Source: Erysipelotrichaceae bacterium
GTDB lineage: Bacteria > Bacillota_I > Bacilli_A > Erysipelotrichales > Erysipelotrichaceae
Direction of reading: 5' to 3'
Length of the DNA stretch: 64,000 nucleotides
Assembly: GCA_030694975.1 (NCBI GenBank)
Contig: JAUYTU010000035.1
Span: 62,001-126,000, forward strand
Shown here: one piece after another, positions 22,960 to 30,593 of the stretch
Layout: the number at the start of each line of letters is the position of its first letter
Numbering within the stretch: position 1 is the stretch's first letter
Translations under genes and position numbers: made by a program
Notes under the pieces: model-generated
Database searches by the model: none
The model's input: the letters and a program-made list of their open reading frames with translations, nothing else
Told to the model about the DNA's origin: nothing

Positions 22960-22991
22960 ATATTGCAATGCTATATACATTGTGATATATT
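22960..22991 (+). promoter_or_regulatory. padR promoter with embedded inverted repeat (candidate PadR operator)
   Basis: TTGCAA (22963-22968), 17 bases, TATATT (22986-22991) form the promoter. The 11-base arms at 22960-22970 and 22978-22988 match at nine positions around a 7-base centre. The perfect core is CAATG-N7-CATTG. PadR proteins usually bind palindromes over their own promoter, so autorepression is likely. Confidence 0.65.
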
Positions 22992-23013
22992 ATATCTAGT
23001 AAGGAGGAACTTA

Positions 23014-23334
23014 ATGAACGCACAATTTAAAAAAGGCGTTTTGGAATTATGTGTGCTCTCTCAATTGTCGCAAGGGGATAAGTATGGTTATCAGCTGACG
23101 GAGGCGATTTCAAAGCAAATGTCGGTTGCTGCCGGTACGTTGTATCTGTTGTTGCGCAGGCTTAATGAGGAGAACTATTTTGAAACGTATTTGGTGGAAT
23201 CACCGGAAGGTCCGGCGCGTAAGTATTACAAACTTACACCGATCGGACATCAACATTATAAGAAGCTTAAAACAGGGTGGATCGAATTTGTGGAGCAGGT
23301 CAATCAACTGATGAAGGAGGATCATGATGAGTAA
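23014..23334 (+). CDS. PadR family transcriptional regulator
   Basis: Winged-helix repressor of 106 residues (short subfamily). The fold is seen in LELCVLSQLSQGDKYGYQLTEAI, AAGTLYLLLRRLNEENYFE and GPARKYYKLTPIGHQHY. AAGGAGG seven bases before ATG 23014 sets the start. It overlaps the next gene, a DUF1700/DUF4097 protein. This regulator plus envelope-protein pair is common in Firmicutes and often responds to membrane or wall stress, which is an inference here. Confidence 0.92.
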   Translation: MNAQFKKGVLELCVLSQLSQGDKYGYQLTEAISKQMSVAAGTLYLLLRRLNEENYFETYLVESPEGPARKYYKLTPIGHQHYKKLKTGWIEFVEQVNQLMKEDHDE

Positions 23335-24355
23335 GGTTCAATATTTGGATTTATTAAAGAAGAAGTTAGCGTTTGCGGATGGTGATTTTGTGGAGTCGCT
23401 GATCGCAGATTTTGAAGCTCATTTTGAATCGGGGTTCGCCGATGGGCTGAGCGAAGAAGAAATCATTTCACATTTGGGCGATATCGACGAAATTGTGGAG
23501 TCATTGGATGTAAAAGATGTTTATATTAATAAAGGTGAATCCGTCGAAAAGTTGATGAGTGGGAAAGTGAATCACATGGTTGTTGATGGTAAGTTTGCGG
23601 ATGTAACGTTCACACCCTCTTTAAATGATAAAATCGAAGTGAATATGCTTAATAAAGGCGGTTTGCTTTCTAAGTTCTCTCATACGATGATCGGCGAGCA
23701 AAAAGGTGATGTTTTTGAAGTAAGAGTGTTGCCTCTATTCAATGTTAAATCCAACGTTGACATGAAAATTTCTGTAACACTTCCATCCCATCTGCTCTCA
23801 TGTAGAGTAATGACATCCAGTGGTGATGTTGTGTATTCCGGTATATCGTTTGATGGGGATTGTTCGATAACTACGGCCAGCGGTGATGTTTCGGTTACGG
23901 ATTGTACTAATAAAAATTATGAGTTTAAAATAGCAAGCGGCGATTTGAAATTCAGTCGAAATGTTGGTGATATTCGCATAAAATCGGCGAGTGGTGATGT
24001 AGTGATTAAAGAGGGTAGGGGAGCAGATTTTGAATGTTCACTGGCCAGCGGTGATCTGTCAGTTCAAGGATTTTATCAGAAGGTCAATGTTAAAGCGGTC
24101 AGTGGTGATGTAAACTTGGAGATGAGCGATGGAAAAGAATTTTCAATCTCAACGGTCAGCGGTGACGGTCGGGTTCATTTGAAAAACATGGGTTCCATCC
24201 GGTTTGATTTCTCATCGGTTTCTGGTTTTTGTACAATCAAGGAGTCAGTTGAAGAGCACAAACTTAAGAACCAGCAACATCTAGTACTAAAAGATGGGGA
24301 CATTCCCTGTAAAATCAGTACTGTTAATGGAAAATTTGAAGTAAACATGGGTTAA
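23327..24355 (+). CDS. DUF1700/DUF4097 family protein (PadR partner)
   Basis: The first 65 residues are a DUF1700-type helical region (YLDLLKKKLAF, LSEEEIISHLGDIDEIVESL). The rest is a DUF4097-type beta-helix with repeated SGD turns (SSGDVVYSG, ASGDVSVTD, ASGDLKFSR, ASGDVVIKE, ASGDLSVQG, VSGDVNLEM, VSGDGRVHL). There is no clear membrane helix. ATG 23327 is favoured over the ATG three bases earlier by its spacing to GGAGG. It is translationally coupled to padR. The exact role is unknown. Confidence 0.82.
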   Translation: MSKVQYLDLLKKKLAFADGDFVESLIADFEAHFESGFADGLSEEEIISHLGDIDEIVESLDVKDVYINKGESVEKLMSGKVNHMVVDGKFADVTFTPSLNDKIEVNMLNKGGLLSKFSHTMIGEQKGDVFEVRVLPLFNVKSNVDMKISVTLPSHLLSCRVMTSSGDVVYSGISFDGDCSITTASGDVSVTDCTNKNYEFKIASGDLKFSRNVGDIRIKSASGDVVIKEGRGADFECSLASGDLSVQGFYQKVNVKAVSGDVNLEMSDGKEFSISTVSGDGRVHLKNMGSIRFDFSSVSGFCTIKESVEEHKLKNQQHLVLKDGDIPCKISTVNGKFEVNMG

Positions 24356-24368
24356 TCCCATGTTTTTT
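24343..24368 (+). terminator. Terminator overlapping the DUF4097 gene stop
   Basis: AAACATGGG 24343-24351 and CCCATGTTT 24357-24365 form a 9-bp stem. The stop TAA lies in the loop, and T follows. Confidence 0.87.
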
Positions 24369-24369
24369 A

Positions 24370-24398
24370 TTGCAATCCGCTTTTTTTTGTCTTAAAAT
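24370..24398 (+). promoter_or_regulatory. Promoter of the AbiEi/cohesin-dockerin operon
   Basis: TTGCAA (24370-24375), 17 bases, TAAAAT (24393-24398). It follows directly after the previous terminator and precedes the four-gene operon ending at the hairpin at 30573. Confidence 0.72.
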
Positions 24399-24441
24399 AT
24401 AATTAATTAAACACAAAAATGAAAGATTGTGGGTACTAAAT

Positions 24442-25095
24442 ATGAGCCAACGACTATTTTATCATCCGTTGTATACGACTCAGCGCTTATTGGATGCCGG
24501 CTTTACGTTTCGCACGATTCAGGATTTGATTGATCAACAGAAAATTGTACGTATAAAACGGGGTTTGTACGTTCCGGCTGATCGCATTCATCATCAGCAT
24601 GAATGTGCTTTTTCACTTTTTTCGGATGCTTTGTTTTGTCTGATGAGTGCGGCTTTTGTTTATGGTTATGTGTATCAGCAACCTTCTCAAATTTATATTG
24701 CTGCTAATAAAAATGAGAGTCGAATCAAGTATCGTAGCGATTTTTTAGACATTAAAACGATGTACCGTGATAATAAGTATTTTTCGTTGGGATATGATGA
24801 AACAGTGTATAACGGTCATCATATTCACATAACCGATCGGGAGCGTACAGTGTTGGATTGTATCCGTCATCGCAACATGATTGGCTCAGCTGCATATCAT
24901 AAAGTGATTGAAGGATATATTGAGGATCCGAAGAAAGATGTGATTGCACTTATTTGTTATGCCAAAAAAATGCGTATTTTTAAGAAGGTTCGGTTGATTT
25001 TCGAGCCTTGGATTGAAGATTTCACCTTATTAACAGAGAAAGCGGAGCCGATGTGTGTTAAGATAAACGCGGTGGTGATGGATCATGAGGCGTAA
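24442..25095 (+). CDS. AbiEi-like transcriptional regulator (orphan antitoxin type)
   Basis: A 217-residue protein with an N-terminal winged-helix region (TTQRLLDAGFTFRTIQDLIDQQKIVRIKRGLYVP). It is followed by an AbiEi-like domain with FSDALFCLMSAAFVYGYV and the block ITDRERTVLDCIRHR. AbiEi proteins act as antitoxin and autorepressor of AbiEii nucleotidyltransferase toxins. No AbiEii gene is present; three surface-protein genes follow instead. The SD before ATG 24442 is weak. It overlaps the next gene by 11 bases, so a regulatory role in that operon is plausible but inferred. Confidence 0.78.
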   Translation: MSQRLFYHPLYTTQRLLDAGFTFRTIQDLIDQQKIVRIKRGLYVPADRIHHQHECAFSLFSDALFCLMSAAFVYGYVYQQPSQIYIAANKNESRIKYRSDFLDIKTMYRDNKYFSLGYDETVYNGHHIHITDRERTVLDCIRHRNMIGSAAYHKVIEGYIEDPKKDVIALICYAKKMRIFKKVRLIFEPWIEDFTLLTEKAEPMCVKINAVVMDHEA

Positions 25096-26038
25096 TGGGT
25101 TTATAAATGTTCTGATTTGGACGTTGGTCATCTTACTTATCGTCGGTTTGACGTATGGGGTGTTCACACTTTTTAACGGTGTAAAATACCCGGATGAGGA
25201 TGATCCGATCGTTATCCCGAAGGATCCTGTGATAACGGCAACGATGGAAGGGTACACGGTTTATAAGTTAAGTGAGATCAGTTTTCCTTTTGTCATCGCT
25301 CGTGTCACTTTTGAAAGTGAAGAGGCTATGTTTTTCGATATCAGTGATCTTATCACTTCAGAACAGTTATCATTGGCTCAAACACAAGTTTATCAAGATG
25401 ATCTATTGTCCAATGGTCTGTTTTTGAGTTATCAGATGGTAGAATTTGAATTACCGCGCAATAAGAAGTCGTTTTCAATCAATCTCTTTATTCCTGTTAA
25501 AAATCCGGATGCACAGAAGATTACGGTTACTACCCGTTTTAAGTCGGATATTAAATTGGAGTTTGATTTGTCGTTTGTTCAGGGTGTTAAGGAAATGTTG
25601 GGATACGTTGAGGATGATCCTACAGTAATTACAGACAATGACAAATATAAATTGAAGATTCTAGGTTTAGAGGATTTAACAAATACTACAATAATGCAAA
25701 GGTTAAGTGATGGTGAAAGTGAACAAGCAGAATTTTCCTCGCAAGCACGAGTAATTGGAGTAAAGCTTCTAATAGAACCATTAGGTGGCAAGATTGTTAC
25801 CTTAAAAGATTCAAGACTTAAGTTAAAGGACGGAACTGTTATTGCACTTGCTCTTGATAGTAGTTATTTCATCGAAGGATATGTAAGCACTTTGGATCAC
25901 CAGTTTCAAAGCATCGAGGAAAGTTACCTTATATTTGATATTTACTCAGATACACAAGAATTACTTAATATGGCTTTAATATTAGAAATAAAATTTGAAG
26001 GGGAAGATGATTGGATTACAATACTAATTAACGAGTAG
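25085..26038 (+). CDS. Membrane-anchored extracytoplasmic protein, unknown function
   Basis: I do not recognise this 317-residue protein. One N-terminal helix (about 7-30) is followed by a domain of alternating strands, rich in acidic residues and without cysteines, so it is likely outside the cell. The C-terminal half (about residue 180 on: YKLKILGLEDLTN to ALILEIKFEG) looks like an immunoglobulin-like or DUF4352/DUF5067-like fold, a weak guess. The DNA becomes clearly more AT-rich from about 25620 on. It is placed between the AbiEi-like regulator and the dockerin protein, seven bases before the latter. Confidence 0.7.
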   Translation: MRRNGFINVLIWTLVILLIVGLTYGVFTLFNGVKYPDEDDPIVIPKDPVITATMEGYTVYKLSEISFPFVIARVTFESEEAMFFDISDLITSEQLSLAQTQVYQDDLLSNGLFLSYQMVEFELPRNKKSFSINLFIPVKNPDAQKITVTTRFKSDIKLEFDLSFVQGVKEMLGYVEDDPTVITDNDKYKLKILGLEDLTNTTIMQRLSDGESEQAEFSSQARVIGVKLLIEPLGGKIVTLKDSRLKLKDGTVIALALDSSYFIEGYVSTLDHQFQSIEESYLIFDIYSDTQELLNMALILEIKFEGEDDWITILINE

Positions 26039-26045
26039 AGGTACA

Positions 26046-28622
26046 ATGAAAAATACGATAAATTACATTATTTCAATATTTATTATTGTATATAGTCTTA
26101 ATTTCACTAATGTCCTTGCAAGTGAAGATTTATTATGCACAATTACTCAATTTGAGATCAAATCAATTAATGATAATCAAACTAGTACGGTTTTAGCTTG
26201 CGCAAATAGTTTTGAGGAAGCTAATGTTTTTATGAACCAAAGTAAAAGCATTTATCCAGATTTGATTATCCAATACAAAGGTGCGACCAACCCGAATAAA
26301 ATAATTGCTGCTACACGAGGTGTTGCTGGATCATCCTTGACTACTACATCCACTTTAAACATTTATGAAACAAGTAGTTTTTCTGGAGAAGTAACATACG
26401 TTCCAAATAATGTTGATATGGCATACTATGAAACAATCAGCTACAACATTGGTTCGGGAGTTGGCAAGGCCAAAGTAAAAATATCAGGTTTTTTAGGATT
26501 CGCAGAGTTACAAAACATAAAAATTGTTCCACTAAAATATATTGAAAAAGGTTGGAGTTTCGAAGGGTTTGTATACAAAATGAATGAGTATAGGGTAAGC
26601 TCCAGTGCTTCAGAAGTTAATAGAGAGATTTTCCATCAGACTTTCCCGTTTCCTGGATCCTCTAATTTGCAAGGGACTTATTTGTATGGTCCAGCCCCAT
26701 CTTGGTTACTAAATGGAACTTATTACAGTTGGGATGGTGTTAGCTTCTACACAGATAGAGAAATGAAAAATCCAGTACTAGATGGCACAAGTATAGGGAA
26801 ATACTATCAATACTATCAATATTTGCCATTGAGGTCGACATCAAATATCTCATCACTACAGTTGAATGATTTTCTGAAGGATGAAGGATTCATAAAAAAA
26901 GCAATTACTTATACTAATCCAAAAGAACCTGGGGCAAGTGTAATGTTTAATGAAGGAGATGCTTTCACAAAAAACCAGCTTCTATATGGTGTTAATTCTC
27001 TTCTTATTTATGCTATGGCGCTGCACGAAAGTAGTAGAGGTACAAGTAAGATAGCAGTTCAAAACAATAATCTATTTGGTTGGGGTGCTGTTGATTCTAG
27101 CCCATCAAGTGCAAAAGTCTACACTAGCATATCTGCAGGTATTGCAGAACATATGGGAAGACAAATTAGGGGATACTTAAGTACTGATAATTGGCGTTAT
27201 TTCGGTTCGATTTTGGGGAATAAACGAAATGGTATTAATACTAAGTACGCATCGGATCCGTACTGGGGTCAGAAAATTGCAAGTTGGGCTTATAGAATTG
27301 ACAAATCTGCTAATCTAGTTGATTACCAGTATTTTAAGATAGCCATAATCGAAAATGAAAATGGTAGGAATTTTAGACCTGAACAAAGTACAATCAGTAA
27401 TATTTTATATACTATCCCAAAAAGATCAATTGAACACTCTATAATTGTGAATGGGATGACTCTTATTGACGGTAAGAATTGGTTTTCTACAACTGGAACG
27501 AACCCAATATTATACAAGTCAACCATGATTGCTCCTGTATTCAGTAAAACACTTGAAGCTATAAATGTTAACATAATTAATGATCAACTTATAATCCCTA
27601 ATCATGGTTTCGGTCCAGCTGGATCATATATTAATCTAAAATATACTGGTAAAACAGGAGATCCAATTAAGTATTTGCTGACTAGTACATCCAGAGATCT
27701 TTCAATAGGTGACATTTCACAACTCATTGTTGTTGATGAAAATACATTACAATTCCGTTTCGAAGGATGTGGTAGAGATTTGACTTCTGCAGGAACAGGT
27801 AATCATACTTTTGAGCTTTATAAAGAATATGTAGTGACGTACGAAAAGTCATCATGTCAAATGATTCCTTATTATTGGACAGAATCTACTGGTTATATTC
27901 AATCTGATAACTTTTATATTTCATCTCCGGGAAGGCAATTTGAGTTAACACCTGGTGTTTACGATGAAAGTCTAAAGGATGAAGATCCGATTTCATCTTT
28001 GAAAATTCATTCGTTCTCAGATGGAAAACTAATAGTTCAAGGAATTGGATTAAAAAAAGGCATCTCAGCACCCATCTCAAATTATGTAAAATTTGAGATA
28101 GTACTAGAATCTGAGAGTAATCTATATAGATTTGCAGATGTTTCACAGATTGAAGACAAGACATTGACAGATTTATATGGAATTAACCGGTTTAATTATG
28201 ATTTTACAAAATTTCTTGGAGTAATTGAACTGTCAGAACTAAATGTGGGTACTTACAAACTTTTACTCGATGCAAAATTTATGCCTCCACATTATGAGAC
28301 AGGTTTTAAAAAAGAGATTTCGACATTGGTTGAATTCACATCTATCCATTCGTTTCAAGGAAAGAGTTATCAACTAACTAAAAACATTCATAATGAAGTC
28401 CAGCTCGTTGTTACTTTAGGGGATTTTGTTCGGCTTGCTGGCGATGTAAATGGTGATGGTAAAATCTCTATAACTGACTTGGTTATGTTACATTTAACGA
28501 TTTCCGGAATAGATACTTTTAATGAATTTGTAAATAGTAATGCTGATATGAACAGTGATGGAAAAATATCGATTACTGACTTAGTTATGTTGCATTTACT
28601 CATCTCTGGTATTGAGTACTAG
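26046..28622 (+). CDS. Secreted N-acetylglucosaminidase with C-terminal dockerin
   Basis: 858 residues. A signal peptide at about 1-25 is followed by a region of mixed strands (SH3-like pieces around 100-120). A glucosaminidase-type peptidoglycan hydrolase domain lies at about 300-425: LLIYAMALHESSRGTSKIAVQNNN, with E328 the probable acid, then the NLFGWGAVDSS core and WGQKIASWAYRID. A beta-rich middle region follows. Residues 797-858 are a type I dockerin with two Ca-binding loops, DVNGDGKISITD and DMNSDGKISITD, each followed by LVMLHL. The next gene encodes a cohesin, the dockerin's natural partner. AGAGGT precedes ATG 26046. The whole gene is AT-rich compared with its surroundings. Confidence 0.85.
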   Translation: MKNTINYIISIFIIVYSLNFTNVLASEDLLCTITQFEIKSINDNQTSTVLACANSFEEANVFMNQSKSIYPDLIIQYKGATNPNKIIAATRGVAGSSLTTTSTLNIYETSSFSGEVTYVPNNVDMAYYETISYNIGSGVGKAKVKISGFLGFAELQNIKIVPLKYIEKGWSFEGFVYKMNEYRVSSSASEVNREIFHQTFPFPGSSNLQGTYLYGPAPSWLLNGTYYSWDGVSFYTDREMKNPVLDGTSIGKYYQYYQYLPLRSTSNISSLQLNDFLKDEGFIKKAITYTNPKEPGASVMFNEGDAFTKNQLLYGVNSLLIYAMALHESSRGTSKIAVQNNNLFGWGAVDSSPSSAKVYTSISAGIAEHMGRQIRGYLSTDNWRYFGSILGNKRNGINTKYASDPYWGQKIASWAYRIDKSANLVDYQYFKIAIIENENGRNFRPEQSTISNILYTIPKRSIEHSIIVNGMTLIDGKNWFSTTGTNPILYKSTMIAPVFSKTLEAINVNIINDQLIIPNHGFGPAGSYINLKYTGKTGDPIKYLLTSTSRDLSIGDISQLIVVDENTLQFRFEGCGRDLTSAGTGNHTFELYKEYVVTYEKSSCQMIPYYWTESTGYIQSDNFYISSPGRQFELTPGVYDESLKDEDPISSLKIHSFSDGKLIVQGIGLKKGISAPISNYVKFEIVLESESNLYRFADVSQIEDKTLTDLYGINRFNYDFTKFLGVIELSELNVGTYKLLLDAKFMPPHYETGFKKEISTLVEFTSIHSFQGKSYQLTKNIHNEVQLVVTLGDFVRLAGDVNGDGKISITDLVMLHLTISGIDTFNEFVNSNADMNSDGKISITDLVMLHLLISGIEY

Positions 28623-28635
28623 ATAAGGAGAAGTT

Positions 28636-30582
28636 ATGAAAAAAATATTGATGAAATTTCTGATATTGTCTGTATTGTTATCGTTTGTATCCGTGAATAT
28701 TGAGACGGTAAAGGCGGCAAGTTACCAGACAAGAATCAATGGTTCGACCAATGGTTCGTTAAATATATACGCAGGAAACACATTCACTGTAACGTTTAGT
28801 ATGACCGACGCTTCCAACGTTTATGGAGTTGAAGCTAATCTCAATTATAGTTCAACCTATTTTGAGTTAGTAAAAGCAACTAATGAGTTTTCAGGCGGAG
28901 ATCCATTATCTGTTGGCTCAAAAGTAGTTGTATCAACCACATCACCAAAGAGCGGTACGTTTAATTTCGCTAAATTAACGTTTAAGGCGAAGCCTGCATT
29001 TTTAGCAACTACATCACCGCAAGCAATATCGCTTTCAAATGTATTTGCGACGTATGATAAGACCAAAGAGGCAGCTGGAGTCGGAAGTCGCATAACCGTA
29101 GATGTTGTTGTACCAAAATCCTCCAACAACAACCTGGCATCCCTGAGTGTCAACGGCACATCCGTCACCGGATTCTCAGCCACTGACACCTCCTACACGT
29201 TAGCAAACACCGATGCAACCTCGATCACGATCGCAGCTTCAGCATCGGATAGTAAAGCATCTGTATCGGGTACAGGAACGAAGTCTCTCGCTTATGGTGT
29301 AAATAAGTTTAACATCGTTGTTACAGCTGAGAGCGGAGCAAAGAAGACTTATACGGTGACCATTACTCGCAATGACTTTCGAAGTACCAACAATGATTTA
29401 AAATCTCTGACCGTCGAAGGGTACACAGTTGTTTTCGATAAGGATAAACTGACGTATACGGTGATTGTTGATAATGCGGTAACCACGGTCAATGTAGGTG
29501 CACAGGCCGCTGATGATAAAGCGAGTGTCACTGGAACCGGTGCAAAAACTCTTAAAATCTACAGTAATTTGATTAATATAGTCGTTACTGCTGAGAATAC
29601 CTCAAAGAAAACCTATGTAATTAATGTCGTTCGTCGGGATGCGGCCGGTATTGCCGGTGATTTGTCGCGTGACAATAAGTTAAAATCGTTAGTTATCGCA
29701 GATTATCCGTTTGAATTTAATCCGGATACCCTGGAATATACCATTGATGTTGAGAATTGGATTGAAACCGTAAATGTAACGGTTGAATTAAGTGATTCAA
29801 AGGCATCTTATTTGATTGCCAATGCGGAAGAACTCATTGTCGGTCCCAATGAAATACTTGTCAAAGTGTACAGCGAAAGTGCGGAAGAGCGAATTTATAA
29901 AGTTACGGTCAACCGCATGGGTGATAATCCGGTGGTCGCTATTGAGCGAATTATCGCTTTACTGCCACGAATCGTGGCTGAAAATATCGAAATTACGACC
30001 AAGGATCCCACAAGCATGACCACAGAGATTTGGAATCAGTTGGTGGGTACCGATAAGAACTATATGTTCAGTGTTCGTAATGAATTTAATGAAACATTAT
30101 ATATGTGGAAATTTGAAGGTTTGATGATAAGTCAAAATGAAGTCATGAACTTTGATGTTCAGTTTGATTCGCTTGAGCGTGATGAGATTCGCCGACTGCT
30201 CGATTATCGTGAATCCATTTTACTAAATTTGGCACATTCCGGTGAGATTCCTGAAGGCTTGACCTTGAGTGTGAATGTTTCGAAAATGTATAAAGATGAC
30301 AGTATACTGTATTTATATTATTACGATAGTGAAAGTGGCAAACTTGTGGATGAAGCTGTGGAGTTTGTGGTTAAGGAAGGTTACGTTGAAGTTGATTTGG
30401 ATCATGCTTCACAATATGTTCTGACACCGGTCAAACTATCGATGTTTGACAATCTCGGATTGATTCTTGCCGGAGTCGTTGCTTTACTCGTACTTTTGTT
30501 ACTGATCGTATTAGTATCTTCGTCTTTGAAAGTTAAGACCTTAAAACGTCGGTTGGCTCGAAAAACTGAAAGTGCCGCTTAG
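28636..30582 (+). CDS. Membrane-anchored cohesin protein with cadherin-like domains
   Basis: 648 residues. Signal peptide at 1-27 (cleavage near VKA-A). Residues 29-156 resemble a cohesin: NIYAGNTFTVTFSMTD, VYGVEANLNYSSTYFELV, FNFAKLTFKAKP. Three cadherin-like beta-sandwich repeats (PF12733 type) follow at about 160-245, 248-332 and 345-425, each with SLxV, DxxxYTxxV and NxxxIxVTAE...KTYxxxxxR patterns. A further extracellular region and a C-terminal helix (about 608-632) with a basic tail (LKRRLARK) anchor it. It follows the dockerin gene by 13 bases with AAGGAG as SD. It likely holds the dockerin enzyme at the surface. Confidence 0.84.
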   Translation: MKKILMKFLILSVLLSFVSVNIETVKAASYQTRINGSTNGSLNIYAGNTFTVTFSMTDASNVYGVEANLNYSSTYFELVKATNEFSGGDPLSVGSKVVVSTTSPKSGTFNFAKLTFKAKPAFLATTSPQAISLSNVFATYDKTKEAAGVGSRITVDVVVPKSSNNNLASLSVNGTSVTGFSATDTSYTLANTDATSITIAASASDSKASVSGTGTKSLAYGVNKFNIVVTAESGAKKTYTVTITRNDFRSTNNDLKSLTVEGYTVVFDKDKLTYTVIVDNAVTTVNVGAQAADDKASVTGTGAKTLKIYSNLINIVVTAENTSKKTYVINVVRRDAAGIAGDLSRDNKLKSLVIADYPFEFNPDTLEYTIDVENWIETVNVTVELSDSKASYLIANAEELIVGPNEILVKVYSESAEERIYKVTVNRMGDNPVVAIERIIALLPRIVAENIEITTKDPTSMTTEIWNQLVGTDKNYMFSVRNEFNETLYMWKFEGLMISQNEVMNFDVQFDSLERDEIRRLLDYRESILLNLAHSGEIPEGLTLSVNVSKMYKDDSILYLYYYDSESGKLVDEAVEFVVKEGYVEVDLDHASQYVLTPVKLSMFDNLGLILAGVVALLVLLLLIVLVSSSLKVKTLKRRLARKTESAA

Positions 30583-30593
30583 CGGCATTTTTC
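30573..30593 (+). terminator. Terminator of the cohesin/dockerin operon
   Basis: TGCCGC 30573-30578 and GCGGCA 30582-30587 enclose TTA, followed by TTTTTC. The stop codon TAG lies within the hairpin. Confidence 0.86.

Follow-up and report, generated by a model that had tools for sequence, protein, structure and literature searches.

What does a dockerin do at the end of a peptidoglycan hydrolase, next to a gene for a cohesin-bearing membrane protein, in an Erysipelotrichaceae genome where nothing points to a cellulosome? The question is raised by a four-gene unit in the 64,000-nucleotide stretch of DNA analysed here (the window). Our reading, to which we assign a probability of roughly 0.75, is that the two proteins form a monovalent, membrane-tethered, non-cellulosomal cohesin-dockerin dyad that displays a GH73 enzyme, presumably by direct binding. 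A connector of multi-enzyme polysaccharide machines would here have moved to a single wall hydrolase.

All four genes of the unit (ORF calls, 24427-30582) lie on the + strand with intergenic gaps of -11, +7 and +13 nt, and a hairpin search found a terminator-like hairpin on each side. The upstream limit is set by that of the preceding gene (24343..24365, +; a 9-pair stem, then TTTATT) and the downstream limit by TGCCGCTTAGCGGCA, followed by TTTTTC (30573..30587, +, the palindrome being listed on the - strand). The source genome measures 2.19 Mb with an estimated completeness of 99.6%. An earlier note on this DNA had described a four-gene operon including a regulator and a second anchored protein, and the genes are where it placed them. 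Its "regulator" is the first gene: the 222-aa cytoplasmic product (24427..25095, +) is wHTH-like, but its resemblance to AbiEi antitoxins is weak (PF13338, E 0.045, 14.3 bits, below the 25-bit cut-off). One orthologue (L117) also falls short, with 24.8 bits against the same cut-off; further orthologues occur at loci L037, L038, L039 and L101. The second gene (25085..26038, +) encodes a 317-aa protein of unknown family, with zero matches in curated Pfam or NCBIfam and an N-terminal membrane helix whose hydrophobic segment starts around residue 9 in the hydropathy scan. Its orthologues adjoin a cohesin-dockerin pair in L037-L040, L101-L103 and L117. Regulator and N-anchored membrane protein are kept beside the pair within this genus, and certain other genera show the same. 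Immediately 5' of the unit (22963-24355) lie a PadR regulator and then a HAAS and DUF4097 "toastrack" protein.

The third gene (26046..28622, +) encodes an 858-aa protein matching PF01832 at residues 305-418 (8.2e-14). Its nearest solved structures are the endo-beta-N-acetylglucosaminidases 7pj3 and 4q2w (5e-17), and the alignment to 7pj3 runs through the GH73 active-site region at ALHESSRGTSKIA. On these matches the protein is a secreted GH73 glucosaminidase of predicted catalytic activity. It ends in a type I dockerin (28434..28619, +) that matches PF00404 at residues 798-850 (4.5e-11, 43.2 bits against a cut-off of 22.9) and consists of two near-identical calcium-loop repeats, GDVNGDGKISITDLVMLH and ADMNSDGKISITDLVMLH, each with D-x-N-x-D-G and the loop-end D (GDVNGDGKISITD and ADMNSDGKISITD). 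Since the repeats are nearly identical, binding in either orientation is suggested. A genome profile search returned this dockerin as the sole PF00404 match in its genome.

The partner is a 648-aa surface protein (28636..30582, +; hereafter the anchor), whose N-terminal domain (28705..29109, +, including the last few signal-peptide residues) is confirmed as a cohesin by profile, beta-sandwich fold and relatives. PF00963 reported no match in the whole protein and none in a scan of the whole genome, but the isolated domain scored 3.1e-6 and 27.9 bits (cut-off 24.1), so that the comparison of residues 29-156 with this profile, proposed in the earlier note, fails on the full chain and succeeds on the excised domain. 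The lack of other PF00963 matches in the genome therefore carries little weight: that scan had overlooked a true cohesin. Several same-genus orthologues of the anchor exceed the cut-off in the genome scan, and 20 of the 25 members of a cohesin domain alignment give PF00963 matches with E of 1 or below. A search of the PDB with phmmer and the whole anchor gave zero matches; the profile of the aligned set retrieved cellulosomal cohesins at 6e-6. An AlphaFold2 model of the domain (pLDDT 79.7, pTM 0.75) had cohesin entries as its best 41 fold matches in the PDB (TM up to 0.77), led by the Clostridium perfringens modules 2jh2 and 2vo8 (TM 0.71-0.77).

Behind its signal peptide and cohesin, the anchor continues with three cadherin-like domains (three PF12733 stretches, 7.6e-22), a C-terminal ectodomain region, a TM anchor and a basic tail. 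A simple hydropathy scan, on which the membrane topology rests, places the helix at about residues 609-627, with a mean hydropathy of 3.5, and the N-terminus is signal-peptide-like. The earlier note read the architecture of both proteins correctly: a signal-peptide glucosaminidase (PF01832) with a C-terminal two-repeat type I dockerin (PF00404 above cut-off), and a cohesin-like, cadherin-like protein with its own membrane helix. A homologous anchor of 876 aa (L103, 7698-10328, +) has an enlarged cadherin-like stalk, which suggests that stalk length differs among homologues.

In the proposed mechanism, the anchor would be exported, its C-terminal helix would keep it in the membrane, and the cadherin-like stalk would carry the cohesin at its outer tip. 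The glucosaminidase would be secreted separately, its calcium-dependent dockerin would plug into the neighbour-encoded cohesin, and the peptidoglycan hydrolase would thereby be held a fixed distance above the membrane. That the two proteins physically bind, that calcium is needed, that the enzyme acts on the wall of its own cell and that the stalk is a spacer are inferences. The earlier note would have given up the pairing had dockerin partners been found only elsewhere in the genome; this is not the case, because the one detectable dockerin adjoins the gene that carries the cohesin.

Similar arrangements recur among relatives. Dockerins were found in 94 of 196 family genomes and PF00963 matches in 53 of 196. 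The neighbours of 78 dockerin ORFs were sorted in fetched loci that had been picked from search hits, so that the tallies hold for this sample only. A recognisable cohesin gene lies next to 30 of them; 29 others precede the gene for a partner of 400-700 aa with a signal peptide and a TM anchor, in which the N-terminal domain was not recognised as a cohesin; the remainder have a cadherin-like neighbour only (5), lie at contig ends (3) or show neither (11). In distant genera, the N-terminal domains of the partners are not clearly cohesins, which counts against the proposed reading; we do not call them so, because profile-profile alignments with cohesins spanned only 33-48 columns. An iterated profile search did reach some of them, with drift possible. 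Locus L105 (2811-4484, +) has a GH73-dockerin gene followed by an in-frame anchor with an N-terminal domain that is not cohesin-like. Two huge ORFs of 2006 and 2482 aa (L139, 3927-9947, -; L246, 61-7508, +) contain both dockerin and cohesin matches.

The identity of the displayed proteins bears on the most serious alternative, in which the pair does bind and the anchor is a general display socket, the substrate being something other than the wall of the same cell, such as nearby bacteria, peptidoglycan that has been shed, or glycans of a host. The same anchor type serves subtilisin-family proteases (L036, L107, L115, L116), an RCC1-repeat propeller protein (L108) and unknown proteins such as one in L034 that has no clear catalytic domain. 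Display is therefore not specific to wall hydrolases. On the other hand, GH73 is by far the commonest dockerin partner (48 of the 78 ORFs, 14 of these 48 beside a recognisable cohesin and a further 27 beside an anchored or cadherin-like partner), and an enzyme held by a membrane anchor sits in or close to the wall of the cell that makes it. We regard an external substrate as rather unlikely.

Evidence for binding comes from joint variation of the two domains. Orthologous units of the same genus fall into two types. Compared with L039, the catalytic domain encoded in the window is 62% identical, the dockerin 34%, the cohesin 23% and the cadherin domains that follow 83-92%; compared with L037, the dockerin stands at 84%, the cohesin at 81% and the cadherin domains at about 70%. 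In sliding windows, identity shifts near enzyme residue 796, where the dockerin starts, and near anchor residue 155, where the cohesin ends. Judged from these alignments, same-genus orthologues have swapped dockerin and cohesin together. In a set of 22 pairs, distances among the dockerins correlate with those among the cohesins at r 0.86; once the adjoining cadherin and the remainder of the enzyme gene are controlled for, the partial r is 0.81 (p 2e-4), and the remaining correlation of the cohesin with the cadherin of its own polypeptide is -0.10. With a single representative kept for each type (11), the dockerin-cohesin partial r was 0.61 (p 4e-4) and the cohesin-cadherin r was -0.03, all p-values being approximate permutation values that assume exchangeable taxa.

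Could the two domains be co-inherited through DNA adjacency alone, without binding each other? They are separated by about 100 bp and the exchange edges lie near the two outer domain borders, so that a single recombination tract can move both. However, the cadherin directly after the cohesin was not carried along, and in the divergent pairs L115, L116, L118 and L119 the genes have stayed neighbours with dockerin and cohesin about 2 kb apart. A third argument comes from a paralogous anchor elsewhere in the same genome (L032, 5655-7235), which shares 76-78% identity with its counterparts in L034 and L035. Here about 100 aa of the cohesin are gone, in frame, and the dockerin gene is gone as well, a probable remnant being its first 35 codons (37% identity, a modest E of 6e-4). 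The signal peptide between both losses is retained, for which two separate deletions are the simplest account; in this single case, cohesin and dockerin gene appear to have been lost in that way, which speaks against adjacency alone. Covariation, cassette exchange and paired loss together support dockerin-cohesin binding, and mere co-inheritance seems improbable.

That the dockerin instead pairs with a different cohesin of this cell, with the neighbour serving otherwise, is very improbable: the genome does encode a paralogue of the anchor in which the cohesin-like domain is divergent (L033 on contig C27, 6643-8283, +), located next to a VanY-like gene, lacking an adjacent dockerin gene and having orthologues in genus relatives, but this domain falls below recognition by the Pfam cohesin profile and the covariation runs between adjacent partners.

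If the dyad is as proposed, its exchange within the genus might reflect a broader, more tentative scheme, in which sockets across the family are one-to-one and orthogonal, their private codes being swapped as boundary-spanning cassettes while enzyme and stalk stay, and different kinds of enzyme (wall hydrolase, protease, propeller) go to different anchors within one cell. Structural modelling took advantage of L111-L114, where dockerin and cohesin genes share a frame with a single stop between them, so that a read-through fusion could be folded. The AlphaFold model of the L112 dockerin-signal peptide-cohesin fusion had both domains well modelled, but its pTM was 0.59 and it gave no interface readout; Foldseek with this model found the cohesin half alone.

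GH73 autolysins are retained through wall-binding repeats. The window enzyme has its catalytic domain in common with them (the endo-beta-N-acetylglucosaminidases named above; Autolysin E) and, unlike them, would be retained via its dockerin, so that, if confirmed, a wall-cutting enzyme could be held without wall-binding repeats. The claim that neither scaffold repeat nor cellulase is present is true of the operon, and genome-wide it was checked via the dockerin and cohesin profiles only. A single cohesin in the protein and one dockerin in the genome do not make a cellulosome, and since non-cellulosomal cohesins and dockerins are already known, we assign the pair to the cohesin and dockerin families and not to cellulosomes.

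Among characterised systems, the cohesin (X82)-dockerin proteins of C. perfringens, as far as they are treated in PMC12997984 (which cites Adams et al. 2008), are likewise non-cellulosomal with a single cohesin per protein, and their cohesins have the nearest solved fold to that of the window (2jh2, 2vo8, 2w1n). All five C. perfringens cohesin proteins also carry a GH domain (PMC12997984). Unlike these secreted glycoside hydrolases, in the account given there, the cohesin in the window belongs to a membrane anchor that is no enzyme, and the partner genes are adjacent. Anchoring scaffoldins of cellulosomes (for example SdbA; PMC5817068) are similar in that the cohesin of a surface protein receives a dockerin; the window system differs in having no multi-cohesin scaffoldin, a TM helix rather than SLH or sortase anchoring, and one enzyme per anchor, GH73 rather than cellulases. 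The Limousia mucinolysome also uses cohesin and dockerin outside cellulose degradation, but with many dockerin enzymes, active on mucin glycans, on scaffoldins (PMC12997984). Further non-cellulosomal cohesins and dockerins, archaeal ones among them (Peer et al. 2009), in the part covered by PMC9012536, likewise come without cellulases or large scaffoldins; their functions are undefined there, whereas the window holds a conserved gene pair whose enzyme can be named. A keyword search for such an arrangement in Erysipelotrichaceae returned no paper on it, as judged by title, and no account of a membrane-anchored monovalent pair for a wall hydrolase was found in the literature covered, key subscription papers lying outside it. 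The naturally exchanged pairs within one genus offer ready cognate and mismatched partners for measuring specificity and, if confirmed, would add new, apparently orthogonal cohesin-dockerin pairs.

A complete dockerin was also seen in a different setting in genus relative G007 (L252, 5099-5389, -), on a small protein with an N-terminal membrane segment. Its gene has a phage tail-like gene on one side and holin-like and endolysin-like genes on the other, apparently a prophage lysis cassette; no relative was found in viral contigs or phage records. The first repeat of this dockerin (SITDLVQLH) resembles the host's dockerin.
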